A DNA stretch of 40,479 nucleotides from Bacteroidales bacterium (GTDB taxonomy: Bacteria > Bacteroidota > Bacteroidia > Bacteroidales > Muribaculaceae), in contig JAUNNJ010000015.1 in assembly GCA_030531495.1 (NCBI GenBank), positions 1-40,479 on the forward strand. Reading direction: 5' to 3'. Shown piece by piece: positions 9,911 through 18,976 of the stretch. The notes under the pieces were generated by a model. That model was not told the DNA's origin. It was given only the letters and a program-made list of their open reading frames with translations, and made no database searches. The position numbers and the translations under genes are program-made. Numbering within the stretch: the stretch's first letter is position 1; each line of letters opens with the position of its first letter.

Positions 9911-9942
9911 CTTGCATATTTAAAAATAAATATTTAATTTTG
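9911..9942 (+). promoter_or_regulatory. Promoter of the trp operon
   Basis: CTTG (9911-9914), a 20-bp spacer, and TAATTTTG (9935-9942) fit the Bacteroidetes -33/-7 consensus. Transcription would begin near 9949, about 13 nt before the leader peptide ATG at 9962. This spacing leaves room for the leader but little else. Confidence 0.7.
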
Positions 9943-9961
9943 CGGTATAAAAATAGAGAAC

Positions 9962-10021
9962 ATGATATTTTTAACAGACATACGATGGTGGAGCAACTCG
10001 AAATTGATATTCAATTTGTGA
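9962..10021 (+). CDS. trpL: trp operon leader peptide (attenuation), 19 codons with Trp-Trp
   Basis: ATG at 9962 opens a short frame ending in TGA at 10019-10021. It encodes MIFLTDIRWWSNSKLIFNL, with tandem Trp codons TGG TGG at 9986-9991. It lies just downstream of the trp promoter and ahead of a Rho-independent terminator at 10070-10101, and the operon behind it makes tryptophan. This is the layout of a classical leader peptide: scarce charged tRNA-Trp would stall a ribosome at codons 9-10. The stop codon falls inside the proposed antiterminator strand (10018-10028), as expected if a finishing ribosome hides that strand. Translation itself is inferred; no strong ribosome binding site is visible, which is normal for this phylum. 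Confidence 0.8.
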   Translation: MIFLTDIRWWSNSKLIFNL

Positions 10022-10101
10022 GTATGACTACTTTTTGCCCACTATTATTTGGTTGAAACTTTAAGATAGGGACTTGTCACTCACGACAGGTCCTTTTTTT
10101 T
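9988..10101 (+). promoter_or_regulatory. trp attenuator: terminator with competing antiterminator
   Basis: The terminator stem is GGACTTGTC (10070-10078) with GACAGGTCC (10085-10093), one wobble, followed by eight T (10094-10101), ending 36 nt before trpB. The competing stem is GTGAGTATGAC (10018-10028) with GTCACTCAC (10076-10084), with a 2-nt bulge; it takes three bases of the terminator arm and its whole loop. A third pairing, GTGGAGCAA (9988-9996, inside the Trp codons) with TTGCCCAC (10035-10042), has a one-base bulge. It encloses 10018-10028 and so should exclude the antiterminator. A ribosome stalled at Trp codons would break this third stem and allow read-through. All pairings were read by eye and not energy-calculated. 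Confidence 0.75.
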
Positions 10102-10137
10102 GTTAGCATATATATAACAATATTCAAACATATAACA

Positions 10138-11325
10138 ATGAACTACAACATTGACAATAATGGCTACTATGGTGAGTTTGGCGGAGCTTATGTGCCAGAA
10201 GTGCTTTATAAGTGCACCGATGAACTAAAGCGCGCCTATATTCCTATCATTGAAAGCGAAGAGTTCCAGAAAGAGTACCGTGCATTGCTTCGCGATTATG
10301 TGGGTAGGCCGAATCCGCTGTATGAAGCCAAGCGTATGAGCGACAAATATGGCGCCCGTATTTTTCTCAAACGTGAGGACCTTAACCATACCGGGGCTCA
10401 CAAAATCAACAATGCGCTGGGGCAGATATTGCTTGCCAAGAAAATGGGAAAGACCCAAATTATTGCAGAAACAGGTGCCGGTCAGCATGGTGTGGCTACA
10501 GCCACTGTGTGCGCGCTGATGAATATGCCTTGCACGGTGTTTATGGGCGAAACCGACATACAGCGGCAGATGCCCAATGTGGAGCGCATGAAGATGCTCG
10601 GCACAAAGGTGCAAAGTGTCAGCAGCGGCAACATGACGCTGAAGGATGCCGTGAACGAGGCTATACGTTACTGGTGTTGCCATCCTGCCGACACGTTCTA
10701 TATCATGGGCTCGGCGGTGGGTCCGCATCCATATCCCGATATTGTGGCACGATTGCAGAGCATTATCAGCGAAGAAATCAAACAACAGTTGCCCGAGAAA
10801 ATTGGTCGTGACTATCCCGACTATCTGATGGCATGCGTGGGCGGCGGTTCGAATGCCATAGGCACCTTCTACCATTACCTTGATAACGAGCGCGTGAAGC
10901 TTGTGGCTGCCGAAGCTGGAGGCATGGGATGCGACACCGATAAGACCGCTGCTACAATACACAGCGGTTCGGTGGGGATTTTACATGGAAGCAAGACACT
11001 GGTGCTTCAAACGCCCGACGGTCAGGTGATAGAGCCCTACTCGATATCGGCCGGACTTGACTACCCAGGTATAGGCCCTGTGCATGCCCACCTTGCGAAG
11101 AGTGGCCGCGCCACCATCTACTCGGTGAATGACGATGAAGCAGTGCGTGCCGCTTACGAACTCACCCGTCTTGAAGGTATCATACCAGCCATGGAGTCGG
11201 CTCACATCCTTGCCGTGCTGCCCAAGATGGAGCTCAAGCCCAGCGACGTGGTGGTGATAACGGTGAGCGGCCGTGGCGATAAAGACATGCAGAATTTTCT
11301 AAACAACAAGCAATATGCCGACTGA
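10138..11325 (+). CDS. trpB: Tryptophan synthase beta subunit
   Basis: 395 residues, the usual length for a type 1 TrpB. It condenses indole with serine, using PLP, in complex with TrpA. The PLP lysine is Lys89 in [27 protein letters not shown] and the phosphate-binding GGGSNAIG are intact, as is the C-terminal VSGRGDKD. It is the first structural gene after the attenuator. The trpB-first order is normal for Bacteroidetes. trpE follows after 24 bp. Confidence 0.98.
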
Positions 11326-11349
11326 TGGCACAAAATTCTTAAAAACTCT

Positions 11350-12756
11350 ATGGCACAATATAAATACAACGCAATATACAAACGTATCCTCGCTGACAGG
11401 TACACCCCTGTAAACACCTATATAAAGGTGAGAGACAAGTATATCCAAAGCTGTCTGATGGAGAGCTCCGACTATCACGATGGCAGTAATCACCGTTCGT
11501 TTATCGGTTTCAACCCCATCGCAAGCATTAGTGTGGGGCATGGAGTGGTGACAATGACGATGCCCGATGGCACCGTAAATAAGCACGCTTTGAGTGAGCA
11601 ATACACCATAGACAAGGCATTTGAAGATTATTTCAGCCTTTTTGAGATTACGGGTGATGACAAAGGCTATTGTGGACTGTATGGCTACACGGCCTTCGAT
11701 GCTGTGCGGTATTTCGAGAATATACCGGTGAAGGATGTTACAGCCGAGAAGAACGACGCCCCTGATATCTGCTACATTTTCTATCGCAATCTAATCGTGT
11801 TTAACCACTACGACGATTCTCTCACGATGGTTGATATTGTGCCCGAAGGTCAACAAGAGAATGATATCGACAAGATACAGGCGCTGCTTAATAGTCCGAA
11901 TCCACCCGCCTACGACTTCAAGGCGGTGGGTGAATGTGCCAGCACCACCACGGATGTGCAATACAAGGCAACTATAGCCCAGTGTATTAAGCATTGCTTG
12001 CGTGGCGATGTGTTTCAGATTGTGCCCAGTAGGCGTTTCGTTCAGCGCTATGAGGGCGACGACCTGTGCCTGTATCGCGCACTGCGTTGCATCAATCCGT
12101 CGCCTTATCTGTTTTATTTCGATTTTGCTGGCTTTCGCATCTTTGGCAGCTCACCCGAAACTCATTGCTGCATAGAGGGGCGTGAGGCCTACATCGACCC
12201 TATTGCGGGCACCGTGCCACGCACAGGCAACATTGAACAGGACCGGGAGAATGCCGAGTATCTACGCCAAGACCCCAAGGAGAATGCAGAGCATGTAATG
12301 CTTGTGGATTTGGCCCGAAACGACTTGAGCCGAAACTGCCACGATGTGCATGTGGCCAATTACAAGGAAATGCAGTTTTACAGCCATGTGATTCATTTGG
12401 TGAGTCGTGTGGTGGGCACTCTCAACGATGATGCTCATGGATTTAAGGCATTTGTTGACACCTTTCCGGCAGGAACATTGTCGGGCGCACCAAAAGTTGA
12501 AGCAATGAAGATTATTTCAAAACTCGAGCCTCATAGTCGTGGTGCCTATGCGGGATGTATTGGCTTCATGGGATTTGACGGGCAACTTAACCAGGCCATC
12601 ATTATCCGTTCGTTTGTGAGCCGAAATGGCGAACTGTGGTTTCAGGCTGGCAGCGGTGTTGTGGCCAAGAGCAACGAAGAATACGAACTGCAAGAAGCAA
12701 ACCATAAGTTGGGCGCCCTGCGCAAAGCGATAGACATGGCCAGCAATGGTATATGA
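11350..12756 (+). CDS. trpE: Anthranilate synthase component I
   Basis: 468 residues. It forms anthranilate from chorismate and ammonia supplied by TrpG. The chorismate-binding C-terminal domain is complete: FQIVPSRRF, FGSSPETH, IDPIAGTVPRTG, EHVMLVDLARNDLSR and FPAGTLSGAPKVEAM. The N-terminal regulatory part (about 1-190) is shorter than in enterobacterial TrpE, and the LLES-type feedback element is not obvious to me. The gene lies 24 bp after trpB and 21 bp before trpG. Confidence 0.97.
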   Translation: MAQYKYNAIYKRILADRYTPVNTYIKVRDKYIQSCLMESSDYHDGSNHRSFIGFNPIASISVGHGVVTMTMPDGTVNKHALSEQYTIDKAFEDYFSLFEITGDDKGYCGLYGYTAFDAVRYFENIPVKDVTAEKNDAPDICYIFYRNLIVFNHYDDSLTMVDIVPEGQQENDIDKIQALLNSPNPPAYDFKAVGECASTTTDVQYKATIAQCIKHCLRGDVFQIVPSRRFVQRYEGDDLCLYRALRCINPSPYLFYFDFAGFRIFGSSPETHCCIEGREAYIDPIAGTVPRTGNIEQDRENAEYLRQDPKENAEHVMLVDLARNDLSRNCHDVHVANYKEMQFYSHVIHLVSRVVGTLNDDAHGFKAFVDTFPAGTLSGAPKVEAMKIISKLEPHSRGAYAGCIGFMGFDGQLNQAIIIRSFVSRNGELWFQAGSGVVAKSNEEYELQEANHKLGALRKAIDMASNGI

Positions 12757-12777
12757 TATCCCTAAAACATTATAACA

Positions 12778-13344
12778 ATGAAAGTTTACATCATAGATAA
12801 TTACGACTCGTTTACTTATAATTTGGCCCACCTGGTCAAGCAAATGGGAGCAGAAGTGACAGTGGTACGTAACGATAAGTTTGACCTCGACGATTTGGTG
12901 GCTGCTGACAAGATTATTCTTTCGCCAGGTCCTGGCATACCCGATGAAGCAGGCCTTACGCTGAAAGTTGTAGACCGATACAAAGGCATTAAACCAATCT
13001 TGGGCGTGTGCTTAGGCCATCAAGCCATCGGACAATACTTTGGCGGAACGCTAACCAACTTGTCGGAAGTGTATCATGGCATACAATCGGCGGTCACCGT
13101 CGACACAAGCGACTACCTATTTGCAGGCATGGAGACTACTCTACTTGTTGGACGCTACCATTCATGGGTGGTGGATGTTGAAGATTTTCCCACCAGCCTT
13201 CAAGTGATAGCAAGCAGCGAGGAGGGGCAGGTGATGGCTCTCCGACATAAGGAATTTGACATTCGTGGCATCCAATTCCACCCAGAGTCGGTCCTTACTC
13301 CAGAAGGACAGCGCATTATCAAAAACTGGTTAAATCAAAAATAG
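12778..13344 (+). CDS. trpG: Anthranilate synthase component II (glutamine amidotransferase)
   Basis: 188 residues, a stand-alone class I amidotransferase supplying ammonia to TrpE. Start motif IDNYDSFTYNL; oxyanion loop SPGPGIPDEAG; catalytic Cys78 in GVCLGHQAIG; His168 and Glu170 in GIQFHPESVLTP complete the triad. In some bacteria this subunit also serves PabB in folate synthesis; no pab gene is in view. It lies 9 bp before trpD. Confidence 0.97.
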   Translation: MKVYIIDNYDSFTYNLAHLVKQMGAEVTVVRNDKFDLDDLVAADKIILSPGPGIPDEAGLTLKVVDRYKGIKPILGVCLGHQAIGQYFGGTLTNLSEVYHGIQSAVTVDTSDYLFAGMETTLLVGRYHSWVVDVEDFPTSLQVIASSEEGQVMALRHKEFDIRGIQFHPESVLTPEGQRIIKNWLNQK

Positions 13345-13353
13345 ACAATACAA

Positions 13354-14349
13354 ATGAAAGAATATCTATTGCGCCTGATGGCGGGCGAGACCCTCTCGCA
13401 ACAAGATACCCACAGCATCATGCTGGGGATAACAGAAGAAAAATACAATGTGCAGCAAATAGCCGCCTTGCTGATGGCTATACAGACACGAGGCATTACC
13501 GTCGACGAAATTATGGGATTTCGTCAAGGCTTGCTCGACACAGGTTTGCACGTTGACATGAGTGAATATAACTCGCTCGATATCGTGGGCACTGGTGGCG
13601 ATGGAAAGAACACCTTCAATATTTCCACTTGCTCGGCATTTGTTGTGGCTGGTGCTGGCTATCTTGTGACCAAGCACGGCAACGGCAGCAGTACCTCGGT
13701 GAGTGGAGCCAGCAATGTGCTTACCGGTCACGGAGTCAAGTTTAGCAACGATGTCGATTTGTTGAAGAAATCGCTTGAGGAAGCCGGGATATGCTACTTC
13801 CATGCGCCACTGTTTGCCCACGGCATGAAACATGTGGGACCAACTCGCAAGGCGCTCGGCATCCCCACCTGCTTTAACCTGCTGGGTCCGCTCGTGAATC
13901 CTTGCCAGCCCAAGAACTCGTTGCATGGTACTGCTACGCAAATGCAGTTGCGCCTCTACAACAATGTACACCAAAAGATAGGAGACAACTTCGGGGTGGT
14001 GAATAGCTATGACGGATACGATGAAATATCACTTACCAGCGGTTTCAAGATTTGCACAAACAACTACGAAAAAGTCATCACTCCCGTGGATATGGGATTG
14101 GAGTATGTGGAAGCATCAGAACTCTATGGTGGAAGTACCCCAGAGGAAGCGATGAAAATATTTGATGCGGTGCTTGAAGGCACTGCAACCCCGGCACAAA
14201 ATAACGTTGTGATAGCCAATGCGGCATGCGGTATCAGCATTATGGACAAGAATCTTCCTATTGCCGACTCAGTGGCCATCGCGCGCGAGTCGGTGGAAAG
14301 TGGAAAGGCACTGAAGGCATTCAAGAAGTTTGTAGAAATAAACAGTTAA
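13354..14349 (+). CDS. trpD: Anthranilate phosphoribosyltransferase
   Basis: 331 residues. It joins anthranilate to PRPP. The PRPP-binding motif GTGGDGKNTFN is at about 79-89, KHGN at 107-110 and the GVKFSNDV segment follows. NLLGPLVNP and the C-terminal NAACGI region are conserved. It is a stand-alone TrpD, not fused to TrpG. It lies 13 bp before trpC. Confidence 0.97.
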   Translation: MKEYLLRLMAGETLSQQDTHSIMLGITEEKYNVQQIAALLMAIQTRGITVDEIMGFRQGLLDTGLHVDMSEYNSLDIVGTGGDGKNTFNISTCSAFVVAGAGYLVTKHGNGSSTSVSGASNVLTGHGVKFSNDVDLLKKSLEEAGICYFHAPLFAHGMKHVGPTRKALGIPTCFNLLGPLVNPCQPKNSLHGTATQMQLRLYNNVHQKIGDNFGVVNSYDGYDEISLTSGFKICTNNYEKVITPVDMGLEYVEASELYGGSTPEEAMKIFDAVLEGTATPAQNNVVIANAACGISIMDKNLPIADSVAIARESVESGKALKAFKKFVEINS

Positions 14350-14362
14350 AACCATTCATAAC

Positions 14363-15160
14363 ATGGCAACCATACTTGATGAAATATGCTTGCGCAAGCG
14401 ACATGATTTGGATCTTATTTCGGCAGAAATGCGCAGGAATACAATTGATAGAGTGGACCGCTTGATGGCCGACGGCATGCTGGTGCACCATTCGCTACCG
14501 CAAGCACTGCGTGCATCGGCCACAGGTATCATTGCCGAGTTTAAGCGCAAGTCGCCGTCGTTGGGTTGGATAGCTCCCGACTTGAAGCCACTTGATGTAG
14601 TTCCTGGCTATGTGGAGGCTGGAGCTACAGCCTTGTCGATACTTACCGATGAGCCCTACTTTGGCGGCCAATTGGCATTTGTGGAGCAAATGCGCCCGAT
14701 TGTAGATTTGCCCATTTTGCGCAAAGATTTCATTATCGATGAATATCAAATACACGAAGCCAAAGGCGCAGGGGCAGATGTCGTCTTGCTTATTGCCGCT
14801 TGCCTCGACAAGCAACAGTGCCGTTTATTGGCCGAAAGAGCCAAACAACTCGATTTGGACGTGTTGCTTGAAGTGCACAACGAAAGCGAGCTGGAATACA
14901 TATGCGACGGTGTAAGCGTGGTTGGTGTAAACAATCGTGATTTGCACGTGTTTAAGACAGATGTCAACACGTCGGTACGATTGGCAGAACTCATCCCCGA
15001 CGAATTTGTGAAGATTTCGGAAAGCGGCTTGAAAACCGTTGACGACCTGAAAATGCTACGCAGTGTTGGTTATCGCGGTTTCCTTATGGGCGAGCGCTTT
15101 ATGAAACAAGAGTCGCCAGCAGAGTCGCTTGGCCAGTTTATTCAGCAGTTGCAGCGATGA
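14363..15160 (+). CDS. trpC: Indole-3-glycerol-phosphate synthase
   Basis: 265 residues, a TIM-barrel enzyme closing the indole ring of CdRP. The signature IAEFKRKSPS lies at about 57-66, the catalytic-loop LRKDFIIDEYQI has Lys121, and LLEVHNESEL, GVNNRDLHVF and ISESGL are present. It is a stand-alone TrpC. Its last codons overlap the trpF start by 4 bp (ATGA), so translation is probably coupled. Confidence 0.97.
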   Translation: MATILDEICLRKRHDLDLISAEMRRNTIDRVDRLMADGMLVHHSLPQALRASATGIIAEFKRKSPSLGWIAPDLKPLDVVPGYVEAGATALSILTDEPYFGGQLAFVEQMRPIVDLPILRKDFIIDEYQIHEAKGAGADVVLLIAACLDKQQCRLLAERAKQLDLDVLLEVHNESELEYICDGVSVVGVNNRDLHVFKTDVNTSVRLAELIPDEFVKISESGLKTVDDLKMLRSVGYRGFLMGERFMKQESPAESLGQFIQQLQR

Positions 15161-15768
15161 TAGTGAAAGTGTGTGGTATGCGCGAGCCCGACAACATTCG
15201 TAGCGTCGATAGCCTCCCCATTCAATGGATGGGCTTTATATTCTATCCGCCATCAAAGCGCTATGTGAGCAGTGTGCCATCTTTCATGCCCCAGCGAGCC
15301 AAGCGTGTGGGCGTGTTTGTTGATGCAAGTATTGATTTCATCAAAGAGCGAAGCGAGATATTTTGCCTCGATATGATACAGCTTCATGGGCAAGAGACGG
15401 TGCACACCTGCGACCTCGTTCGCTCAGCCACAGGGTGTGGTATCATCAAAGCTTTTGGTGTTAATGACGATGTGTGCTGGGACGATATCCACCGCTACGA
15501 CGGGCATGCCGACTATCTGCTTTTTGACACCTACTGTGCTACGGCTGGCGGTAGTGGAAAGGCTTTTGACCACAGTTTGCTCAGAGGCTATAAAGGCAAA
15601 ACGCCATTTTTATTGAGTGGCGGATTGGGACTTGACAACATGCACGACATTCATCTGCTGCATCATCCTCTCATGGTCGGTGTAGACATCAACAGCAAAT
15701 TTGAAATTGCTCCCGCAGTGAAGTCAACAGAGAAAATTCAGGAATTTCTTGATTTGCTTCAAATCTAA
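15157..15768 (+). CDS. trpF: Phosphoribosylanthranilate isomerase
   Basis: 203 residues. Catalytic Cys6 in KVCGMRE and Asp124 in LLFDTY are both present, as are VGVFVDAS, IQLHGQE and the phosphate-binding LSGGL. It carries out the Amadori rearrangement between TrpD and TrpC. It overlaps trpC by 4 bp. Confidence 0.96.
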   Translation: MIVKVCGMREPDNIRSVDSLPIQWMGFIFYPPSKRYVSSVPSFMPQRAKRVGVFVDASIDFIKERSEIFCLDMIQLHGQETVHTCDLVRSATGCGIIKAFGVNDDVCWDDIHRYDGHADYLLFDTYCATAGGSGKAFDHSLLRGYKGKTPFLLSGGLGLDNMHDIHLLHHPLMVGVDINSKFEIAPAVKSTEKIQEFLDLLQI

Positions 15769-15823
15769 GAATTCTACAGGACAAAAACTATTAAATCCTT
15801 TTTACAGAACACGATATAACATT

Positions 15824-16597
15824 ATGAACCGAATAACTCAATTGTTTAGCACTAAAAAGTCGGGCCTACTCGACATTTATTTCTGCGCAGGTTATCCCCA
15901 CCTGGATAGCACAGTGCCCACACTTAATGCCCTCCAGCAAGCCGGGGTTGATATTTGCGAGATAGGAATTCCTTTCAGCGACCCCATGGCTGATGGCCCA
16001 GTGATTCAGACTGCCGCCACGCAAGCACTCAAAAACGGCATGACGCTGGCTACATTATTTGACCAATTGAAAGATGTGCGTGCAAGTGTCGCGATGCCCT
16101 TAGTGCTTATGGGGTATTTGAATGTGATATACCAATATGGATTTGAAAACTTTTGCAAGAGTTGCAGCGAGTGTGGCATAGACGGCGCTATCATTCCCGA
16201 TCTTCCGTTTGACGTATATATGGATGAGTATAAAGAAATTGCTGACCGTTACGACGTGAAAATAATCATGCTTATCACACCCGAGACCAGTGAAGAGCGC
16301 ATACGTCTTATCGACCAGAATACCGAAGGCTTTATCTACGAGGTATCAACCGATGCTACCACCGGTGCACAAAACGAATATGGCCCCGATACGATAGCCT
16401 ACTTCAAACGCATTCAAGACATGCACCTCAATAACCCAACGCTGGTGGGATTTGGCATTTCAAACAAGGCTACTATCACAGCCGCGCAGCAACATTCGGC
16501 GGGCGCCATCATCGGCAGCAAGTTTGTGCGATTGATGGCAGAGTGTGCCACGCCCGAAGAAGCTATCGCCCAGCTCAAAGAAGCCCTTAATCAATAA
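15824..16597 (+). CDS. trpA: Tryptophan synthase alpha subunit
   Basis: 257 residues from the ATG at 15824 (MNRITQLFST). The frame stays open back to 15749, but those upstream codons do not resemble TrpA and would run into trpF, so the later start is chosen. It cleaves indole-3-glycerol phosphate and channels indole to TrpB. Catalytic Glu46 (CEIGIPFSDP) and Asp57 (MADGPVIQ) have the normal 11-residue spacing. VSTDATTGAQ-type loop 6 and the phosphate-binding GFGISNKAT are conserved. It is the last gene of the operon, 55 bp after trpF. Confidence 0.97.
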   Translation: MNRITQLFSTKKSGLLDIYFCAGYPHLDSTVPTLNALQQAGVDICEIGIPFSDPMADGPVIQTAATQALKNGMTLATLFDQLKDVRASVAMPLVLMGYLNVIYQYGFENFCKSCSECGIDGAIIPDLPFDVYMDEYKEIADRYDVKIIMLITPETSEERIRLIDQNTEGFIYEVSTDATTGAQNEYGPDTIAYFKRIQDMHLNNPTLVGFGISNKATITAAQQHSAGAIIGSKFVRLMAECATPEEAIAQLKEALNQ

Positions 16598-16903: not shown

Positions 16904-18976
16904 ATGGGTACAGAAACATACAACTTCGACAATGTGGTGGATAGGCACGACACCTGCGCCACAAAATTTGAAGAAATGGACCGCAAGTTCGGCCGACACG
17001 ACTTACTTCCTTTTTGGATAGCCGACATGGATTTTGAAGCCTGTCCGTGCATTATCAATGCCCTGCGCCGAAGGCTTGACCACGCAGTGCTGGGCTACAC
17101 TTCCGCTCCCGGCGAATTTTGGGACAGTATCACTTCTTGGCTTCAAAAACGCCATGGATGGAAGGTGAATACCGATGAGATAACATTCATGCCAGGACTG
17201 AAAAAGGCATTGAGCCTGTGTATCAACTACTTTAGTAAGCCAGGCGACGGTATCATTATACAGCCACCTGTGTATCATTCATTTCGCAGCGTAATTGAAG
17301 GCAATGCCCGCAAGGTGGTGGCAAATCCCTTGAAAATTGACCAGCAAGGACAGTATGCCATGGACTTTGACGGCCTTCAGGAGGTGATTGATCGAGAGCA
17401 CCCCACCATGATGATTGTGTGCAACCCCCACAATCCCATCGGTCTGCAATGGGATGCTGACACCTTAGCGCGGGTAGCATCCATTTGTAGAGCCAATGGT
17501 ATCATTCTGGTTTCGGACGAGATTTACGGCGACATGATGCTCGGCGGCAAACGCCACATCCCCACTGCCACGGTGAGCGATGACGCCAGAGAGAACACCG
17601 TGACGCTGGGTGCTCCGTCGAAAACCTTCAACATTCCCGGTATAGTGAGCGCATGGGCAGTGGTGAAGTCGCCACGTTTGCGCGAGCCATTTTTCAACTG
17701 GCTGTCGGCGAGTGAATTCAACACACCGCCTATTGCAGCTATGGTGGCAACACAAGCCGCCTACGAAGAAGGCGAATCGTGGCTCGACCAGGTGCTTGAT
17801 TATCTGCAGGGAAATGTGGACCATGCCTTCAAATTTCTCGGTAGCGAATTGTCGGAGGTGTCGATGTATCGTCCCGACGCATCCTTTGCCATCTGGCTCG
17901 ATTTCAGGAAACTGGGTCTTCCGCAGGAAGAGCTGGTGAAATTGCTCATCGGCCACGGCAGATTGGCGCTGAGCGATGGCGTGTCGTTTGGCAGCCAGGG
18001 AGAGGGCTTCATGCGTATGAATGTGGGTGTTCCGCGTGTGGTGTTGACCGAAGGACTGAAACGCCTAAAGCAAACCATTGCCGACTTCAGTCACGACCTT
18101 CACAGGCATATGGACATTCCTGCTGTTATTCCATTTGTCACCATGCAGGGCTTGGGCAACAAGTTTGCGTTTATCAACTGCATAGACCGGGAGATAGGCA
18201 ACTTGTCGCTCCTCGCCGTGGAAATGAGCCAGCGCCATACCGGTCTCGACACCGATGGTATTATCGCTATTCTTCCGAGTGACGTTGCCGACAGCCGTAT
18301 GCGCATTTTCAATGCCGACGGCACCGAAGCGCAAATGTGCGGCAATGGCATCAGATGTGTGGCAAAATACCTTTACGACAATCAAATCGTGACGACGAAG
18401 AATCTCACAATAGAAACCATGAGCGGCATCAAGTGTCTGCAAGTTCACACCGGGAATGATGGACTGGTGAAGAACGTGACAGTGGACATGGGGCTGCCTG
18501 TCACCACTCCCGACTCCGTTCCCGTTCGTTATCAAGGAGCGTCGATGCTCGATGTTCCCGTAGACGTGGACGGCAAGCATGTGCGCATCACAGCCGTGTC
18601 GATGGGTAATCCGCATGGTGTAACATTTGTGGATAATTTCACCGACCAGATGGTGCATGGTATGGGTGCAAAACTTGAGAACCACGAGATTTGGAATGAA
18701 AAAGCCAATATCGAGTTTGCTCGTGTAGATGCTCCAGGCACGCTTTCTGTCCGCACATGGGAGCGCGGTGCTGGAGAAACTATGGCATGCGGTACGGGCG
18801 CTTGCGCAGCAGCCACTGCTGCAGTGCTTACGGGGCGCCTGAACTGGCCAATCACCGTGCGCCTGCTGGGCGGTAATCTGCTGATTGACTGCGACAGCGC
18901 CACTGGTCATATCCTTATGACCGGACCGGCGGCAACCCTCCATTCTGGGGAATTCTATCCCAACTGCAACTGCTGA
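16904..18976 (+). CDS. dapF: Fusion: MalY/PatB-type PLP enzyme + diaminopimelate epimerase (DapF)
   Basis: 690 residues in one uninterrupted frame. Residues 1-395 form a fold-type I PLP enzyme of the MalY/PatB branch: FWIADMDFEACP (37-48), the PPVYHSF loop, NPHNPIG (174-180), SDEIYGDMM (204-212) and PLP lysine Lys240 in GAPSKTFNIPG. Such proteins are C-S lyases or aminotransferases. After a short junction (about 396-408) comes a full DapF: MQGLGNKFAFI, Cys479 in AQMCGNGIRC, GNPHG (568-572), and Cys629 in WERGAGETMACGTGAC, so both catalytic cysteines are present. DapF converts LL- to meso-diaminopimelate for lysine and peptidoglycan. In Bacteroidetes a DAP aminotransferase (DapL) often neighbours dapF, so an aminotransferase role in the same pathway is tempting. 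However, the N-domain looks like MalY/PatB, not DapL. Confidence 0.9.
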   Translation: MGTETYNFDNVVDRHDTCATKFEEMDRKFGRHDLLPFWIADMDFEACPCIINALRRRLDHAVLGYTSAPGEFWDSITSWLQKRHGWKVNTDEITFMPGLKKALSLCINYFSKPGDGIIIQPPVYHSFRSVIEGNARKVVANPLKIDQQGQYAMDFDGLQEVIDREHPTMMIVCNPHNPIGLQWDADTLARVASICRANGIILVSDEIYGDMMLGGKRHIPTATVSDDARENTVTLGAPSKTFNIPGIVSAWAVVKSPRLREPFFNWLSASEFNTPPIAAMVATQAAYEEGESWLDQVLDYLQGNVDHAFKFLGSELSEVSMYRPDASFAIWLDFRKLGLPQEELVKLLIGHGRLALSDGVSFGSQGEGFMRMNVGVPRVVLTEGLKRLKQTIADFSHDLHRHMDIPAVIPFVTMQGLGNKFAFINCIDREIGNLSLLAVEMSQRHTGLDTDGIIAILPSDVADSRMRIFNADGTEAQMCGNGIRCVAKYLYDNQIVTTKNLTIETMSGIKCLQVHTGNDGLVKNVTVDMGLPVTTPDSVPVRYQGASMLDVPVDVDGKHVRITAVSMGNPHGVTFVDNFTDQMVHGMGAKLENHEIWNEKANIEFARVDAPGTLSVRTWERGAGETMACGTGACAAATAAVLTGRLNWPITVRLLGGNLLIDCDSATGHILMTGPAATLHSGEFYPNCNC

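Follow-up and report, generated by a model that had tools for sequence, protein, structure and literature searches.

The window, a stretch of 40,479 nucleotides from a Bacteroidales bacterium of the family Muribaculaceae, belongs to a genome assembly of 2.67 Mb in 144 contigs. It contains tryptophan biosynthesis genes in the order trpBEGDCFA (10138-16597), directly 3' of a putative attenuator (Table 1). Among these genes, trpB, trpG, trpD, trpC, and trpA score above curated NCBIfam cut-offs; for trpE and trpF the best match is clear but falls below its cut-off. By TrpB, the nearest records are MAGs of Bacteroidota; of those with names, "bacterium UBA1790" is closest (95% identity), followed by two Prevotellaceae MAGs at 84 and 78%. 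On the 3' side of trpA (16904-18976), a single frame of 690 amino acids joins a diaminopimelate epimerase, DapF (residues 410-684), to a preceding C-S lyase of the PatB type (residues 8-392).

Table 1. Promoter, leader, and trp operon features of the window (positions counted from its first nucleotide).
Feature	Position	Strand	Basis
-33 promoter element TTG (putative)	9912..9914	+	sequence; presumed consensus
-7 promoter element TAATTTTG (TAnnTTTG; putative)	9935..9942	+	20 nt spacer after TTG; presumed consensus
Leader peptide ORF, 19 codons, MIFLTDIRWWSNSKLIFNL then stop	9962..10021	+	sequence
Leader hairpin outer stem, pairs the Trp codons	9984..10046	+	MFE fold
Adjacent Trp codons TGG TGG, proposed ribosome stalling site	9986..9991	+	sequence
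Segment 1:2 hairpin, hides segment 2	9996..10023	+	MFE folds
Segment 2, antiterminator 5' strand GTGAGT..GAC, stop codon inside	10018..10028	+	MFE fold, relatives
Leader stop codon TGA	10019..10021	+	sequence
Intrinsic terminator	10068..10101	+	fold; covariation in relatives
Segment 3, antiterminator 3' strand GTCACTCAC	10076..10084	+	last part of the terminator 5' arm, and the loop
trpB	10138..11325	+	TIGR00263, 567.6 bits (cut-off 392.45)
trpE	11350..12756	+	best match TIGR00564, 398.5 bits (below cut-off 517.7)
trpG	12778..13344	+	TIGR00566 (trpG/pabA subfamily), 188.4 bits (cut-off 121.05)
trpD	13354..14349	+	TIGR01245, 283.2 bits (cut-off 199.05)
trpC	14363..15160	+	NF001377, 272.9 bits (cut-off 260)
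trpF	15157..15768	+	best match NF002295, 145.1 bits (below cut-off 216)
trpA	15824..16597	+	TIGR00262, 222.4 bits (cut-off 102.35)

A sequence-only reading of this locus had proposed a promoter, a 19-codon frame with two adjacent Trp codons, and a terminator with eight T, all of which are present base by base and were correctly placed. The terminator stem pairs 10068-10078 with 10085-10095 around the loop ACTCAC (10079-10084), with the eight T at 10094-10101. Folding of 9949-10101, which the same reading had suggested, gives a z score of -4.5, with 0 of 200 shuffles as good; 10032-10101, the RNA left 3' of a ribosome that has reached the stop codon, folds into the terminator with a z score of -3.9, again equalled by none of 200 shuffles. 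The first of its two alternative stems, proposed between 9988-9996 and 10035-10042, appears in slightly shifted form in the minimum free energy (MFE) structure, where 9984-9991 pair with 10039-10046 and 9993-9995 with 10036-10038. In RNA extending to 10085, the 1:2 hairpin forms (9996-10000 with 10019-10023; 10001-10007 with 10011-10017) and buries GTGAGT, and the segment 3 region is also weakly paired with the 5' end of the leader.

The second proposed stem, 10018-10028 with 10076-10084, is recovered exactly in the MFE structure of 10002-10085, the RNA 3' of a ribosome on the Trp codons, where 10018-10023 pair with 10079-10084 and 10026-10028 with 10076-10078. The leader stop codon lies within the antiterminator strand, as had been claimed. 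Taken alone this fold is unexceptional (z -1.3; 21 of 200 shuffles as good), and the antiterminator helix by itself has a p value of 0.035 against shuffles in the window and non-significant values in three of its relatives (0.204 in L001, 0.154 in L002, and 0.114 in L003). In isolation the window antiterminator is weak; the case for that helix rests on the relatives discussed below. Partition functions for the window give a 2:3 pairing probability of 0.84 with the ribosome stalled, 0.00 in free RNA, and 0.00 with the ribosome at the stop codon.

A sigma-70 promoter scan found no match at the promoter site of the leader, and TTG-N20-TAnnTTTG, which we take to be the Bacteroidota promoter pattern, was therefore applied instead. 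In 54 of 69 leaders (two of the 71 analysed below have fewer than 60 nt before the ATG and were dropped), TAnnTTTG begins 22-45 nt 5' of the start codon, compared with 1.9 expected from shuffles, a count carrying a small bias from a start-codon choice that had favoured ATGs with a TAnnTTTG-type site. The longer pattern TTG-N18..22-TAnnTTTG, counted without a shuffle control, precedes 58 of the 69, and the median distance from the final G of TAnnTTTG to the leader ATG is 21 nt. In the window, transcription would start near 9947-9950, about 12-15 nt 5' of the leader ATG.

In all likelihood, this arrangement is a ribosome-mediated transcription attenuator controlling the trpBEGDCFA operon. The window has the elements of a leader-peptide attenuator: an ORF with Trp codons, an intrinsic terminator before the first gene, and, by prediction and comparison, an antiterminator that stalling would free and that excludes the terminator. 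When charged tRNA-Trp is scarce, a ribosome would stall on the TGG pair and cover the RNA up to about 10000-10003, including segment 1 (9996-10000), which therefore could not pair with segment 2. The freed segment 2 would pair with segment 3, the terminator would be blocked from closing, and RNA polymerase would continue into trpB. When tryptophan is plentiful, the ribosome would reach the stop codon and cover segment 2, so that the terminator would form and transcription would end; in the absence of translation the 1:2 hairpin would form and the terminator would again prevail. The leader thus very probably switches the tryptophan-making genes off when tryptophan is plentiful, with stalling, read-through, and the response to tryptophan being what we infer from the anatomy, its conservation, and the folds predicted for each state.

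An Rfam search of the window returned no family at its gathering score. RF01692 (Bacteroid-trp), the Bacteroidete tryptophan peptide leader RNA of Weinberg et al. 2010 (PMC2864571), scored 20.2 bits against a gathering score of 49 (E 7.3 in a 281-base search). Its cut-off was passed by none of 20 loci from the window's family (20 of 50 TrpB loci, the window's own included) and by three of 11 related loci (L006, L007, and L013, all upstream of trpB), two of the 11 (L005 and L039) being without leader sequence. The leaders of L006, L007, and L013 can be aligned with that of the window. Alignments to RF01692 stop, unpaired, in the 5' arm of the terminator, indicating that the model contains neither terminator nor antiterminator pairs.

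We aligned 23 leaders (alignment A1), excluding the window and its nearest relative L001, and built from them a covariance model, R1, that includes the terminator; 19 of the 23 came from RF01692 matches (16 from a search of the order and three from the related loci). R1 found the unseen window with 49.3 bits and an E value of 1.6e-9, the next match in the window having an E value of 0.14, which connects the window to RF01692 members by homology through intermediates. The attenuator is also the only R1 match at E<=0.001 in its own genome. Amino-acid operons of other phyla use T-boxes or TRAP, and on that precedent the switch could be worked by a trans-acting factor or ligand, such as a TRAP-like protein, a T-box, or a riboswitch. 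We consider this extremely unlikely here, given the lack of any Rfam family at gathering score in the window, the absence of the T-box from the ten Rfam matches of the leader region at E<=10, and a conservation centred on the Trp codons and alternative stems.

Within the order, R1 matched 137 of 291 genomes at E<=0.001 and 108 of 291 at E<=1e-6, compared with 26 of 295 for RF01692 (15 above its cut-off), a comparison that leans towards R1, since the genomes of the RF01692 order search that supplied 16 of the 23 sequences match R1 by construction; R1 E values are moreover rough. Across the phylum, 71 of 296 genomes have a match. When 40 chosen R1 stretches were read, 36 proved to be leaders (33 Trp and three His) and four had no leader (L181, L182, L210, and L211; E 6.8e-5 to 1.9e-4); some true leaders are equally weak.

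The sequence-only reading had looked to related genomes for a conserved TGG pair and conserved stems, and both are found. Among 149 genomes sampled from the window's family, 48 loci encode a TrpB of at least 57% identity, and a leader frame with two adjacent Trp codons (WW) lies upstream in 41, counting one (L109) whose frame runs into unread bases and which its length excluded from the leader set. The seven exceptions are L079, L081, L083, L089, and L100, together with L080 and L117, which have too little upstream sequence. Among the named relatives, L001-L004, L006, L007, L013, and L016 have a WW leader. No such leader was found at L008-L012, L014, L015, L017-L021, L024-L033, and L035-L039, nor at L005 and L023, which offer 47 and 56 nt of upstream sequence; L022, whose sole WW frame has a non-ATG start, was left out. 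In six of these loci (L008, L009, L014, L015, L018, and L032) trpB appears by eye to lie closely 3' of the end of another gene. About 0.9 kb upstream of trpB in L007 (1612-1650) is a DUF805b RNA (RF02914) scoring above its cut-off.

Altogether 77 leaders were read, drawing also on the 26 loci that RF01692 had identified within the order, and 71 were analysed. The six dropped were a Bacillota leader (L034) and three others (L077, L090, and L129) in which no terminator was found, one whose terminator call was judged wrong by eye (L106), and one from the same record as L007 (L126). Leaders were chosen by the string TGGTGG, other spacings of Trp codons being uncounted. The run of Trp codons has a length of two in 47 leaders and three in 24.

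Conservation in the peptide lies in its Trp residues, and an Arg directly follows the run in 51 of the 71, as might be expected if a nascent peptide arrested the ribosome in the manner of TnaC, sensing free tryptophan rather than uncharged tRNA at the Trp codons. Beyond the run, however, the peptide varies widely in sequence and in length (15-36 residues), segment 2 is predicted to be freed by a ribosome standing on the Trp codons themselves, and leaders of the same architecture with runs of His codons precede hisG (L189 and L193, by NCBIfam). Peptide arrest is therefore very unlikely.

Pairing between leader and terminator was compared across the 71 leaders by duplex energy. Cognate pairs average -22.35 kcal/mol, compared with -17.34 for swapped pairs, and none of 20,000 permutations, which treat related leaders as independent, did as well. 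A leader's own terminator is its best partner in seven of 71 rows and within the top tenth in 24, low counts that are to be expected where many leaders have a motif in common. RNA duplex energies over-extend the antiterminator beyond its core helix; the analysis then turned to contiguous helices and to partition functions. In 39 of 71 leaders the strongest contiguous helix of the antiterminator surpasses dinucleotide shuffles (p<=0.05; mean z -2.3). The mean antiterminator probability is 0.18 in free RNA, 0.90 with a ribosome on the last Trp codon, a value inflated by the selection of the best helix, and 0.003 with a ribosome on the stop codon, a value that ignores the RNA behind the ribosome and is trivial in the 21 leaders where the footprint misses segment 2. 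The stalled state favours 2:3 pairing by more than 0.2 in 67 of 71 leaders and the reverse holds in none, the four without a predicted switch being L098, L102, L105, and L122.

In alignment A1, 98.8% of terminator cells are paired, and the terminator covaries beyond all 500 shuffles on four of five measures, with 31 doubly changed cells (5.5 in shuffles) and 10 doubly changed pairs (4.3 in shuffles), neither equalled in any of the 500. For the antiterminator, half of whose 3' columns double as terminator stem columns, 91.7% of cells are paired, compared with at most 48.9% when the partner is slid by one to three columns. It exceeds all 500 shuffles in cells paired, in covariation score, and in doubly changed cells (10 versus 2.8). 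The two covariation counts most resistant to relatedness are less distinctive, with four doubly changed pairs versus 2.2 (37 of 500 shuffles as high) and nine further pair types versus 8.1 (161 of 500 as high). The 1:2 pairing is present in 90.9% of cells in A1, falling to 53.2% or less when the partner is slid; it does not exceed shuffles (85 of 500 as high) and has no double changes. Pairing is thus clearly kept, and the terminator shows strong covariation, the antiterminator moderate covariation, and the 1:2 pairing none. Among distant leaders the core differs and still pairs, as GTGAG/CTCAC, CGTAAG/CTTACG (core GTAAG/CTTAC), TCGATGGC/GCCATCGA, and ATCGGTGGTC/GACCGCCGAT.

The low scores of the window antiterminator in isolation, and of the more robust covariation counts for that helix, would suit a plain 5' leader whose constitutive terminator lets a fixed share of transcription through, in which the short ORF and the pairings are incidental. 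Such a leader would account poorly for the WW frames at most TrpB loci of the family, for the preference for cognate pairs across 71 leaders, and for the match of R1 to a window it had not seen, and we regard it as highly improbable. The terminator and antiterminator pairing kept across differing leaders, together with the leader frames and predicted folds of the relatives, instead supports the earlier proposal that leader-peptide attenuation operates before this trpB-first operon.

Leaders recovered by R1 precede several genes besides the trpB of the window. Genes checked against NCBIfam are trpB (L176), trpD (L207, L212, and L213), and, above the respective cut-offs, trpE (L206) and a stand-alone TrpB-like gene (TIGR01415/NF009057; L044, L184, L186, L188, and L190). 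At L174, L175, L177, L178, L194, L195, L197, L200, L202, L205, and L208 the best match is TIGR00564 below its cut-off, as for trpE in the window, and the other downstream genes are trpE-like by eye only. The three leaders with runs of His codons (L183, L189, and L193) share the same architecture and were recovered by the Trp model; in L183, hisD lies about 0.9 kb behind the leader (NCBIfam). Five loci (L174-L178) carry two Trp attenuators in series, both complete with leader ORF and terminator, followed by trpE in four and by trpB in L176. By eye, the first leader of L178 reads W-H-W.

In the genus of the window, a WWW leader and terminator lie directly before the TrpB-like gene at 17 of 28 loci (L044-L050, L053-L061, and L063), with the gene in L044 being the one checked by profile. 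Outside these, Trp leaders with a terminator also directly precede the stand-alone gene at L184, L186, L188, and L190, and overall these leaders are mostly WWW. The copy in the window's own genome (L041) has no such leader upstream. Three of the 61 sampled genomes of the genus, many of which are incomplete, have a TrpB of at least 66% identity, the window's included; in 39 all matches are of low identity (TrpB-like), and 19 lack any match. By position, the TrpB-like gene directly follows a Trp attenuator in 19 of the 61, which suggests that the stand-alone enzyme serves tryptophan synthesis and makes that role testable.

On balance, we lean towards a translation-coupled attenuation system that extends across the phylum and is mostly missed by the existing catalogue, in which the core sequence is rewritten while its pairing is kept and which is reused before operons beginning with trpB, trpE, or trpD, before the stand-alone TrpB-like gene, and, with His codons, before his genes, sometimes in tandem. 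If it exists, such a system would require close coupling of ribosome and polymerase from leaders beginning about 21 nt after the promoter TTTG, in a phylum where, to our knowledge, strong Shine-Dalgarno use is absent, and it makes tight transcription-translation coupling in Bacteroidota testable. Taken by itself, the window reveals a probable control of tryptophan synthesis in this Bacteroidota species; the wider system is the more interesting.

As to novelty, Trp leaders of Bacteroidetes had already been catalogued, the table of Weinberg et al. (PMC2864571) listing Bacteroid-trp as a probable RNA that is probably cis-regulatory and not a switch. Like RF01692, the window has a Trp-codon leader RNA before Bacteroidota trp genes, with ATG, TGG run, and hairpin equally placed; unlike its members, it scores below the cut-off, and the present analysis supplies the terminator and antiterminator that the catalogued family lacks. 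In Flavobacterium psychrophilum, a passage of a 2019 paper (PMC6414381) likens a Bacteroid-trp copy to the E. coli trp leader, and passages of a 2021 transcriptome study (PMC9723704) report "strong clues" that amino-acid operons are preceded by leader-peptide attenuators, and name pheA and hisG among the genes with structured 5' elements upstream. As described there, that organism shares with the window its phylum and the proposed mechanism but belongs to the Flavobacteriaceae. Tandem attenuators are known for Salmonella mgtCBR (PMC3641672); the literature searched held none in trp leaders, which is weak evidence. Within a search of limited scope, that literature yielded no study testing a Bacteroidales trp leader by experiment.

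The enterobacterial trp attenuator (Rfam Trp_leader) combines tandem Trp codons, alternative 1:2, 2:3, and 3:4 pairing, and an intrinsic terminator. The window shares with it the tandem Trp codons, the alternative pairing, and the position of the terminator before a trp operon. It differs in its TAnnTTTG promoter, the short 5' leader proposed above, and an operon that begins with trpB; a further difference is that segment 2 lies at the stop codon or a few bases away in 35 of the 71 leaders analysed. The window is a divergent member, and the mechanism class to which it belongs is textbook material and is already listed for the phylum.
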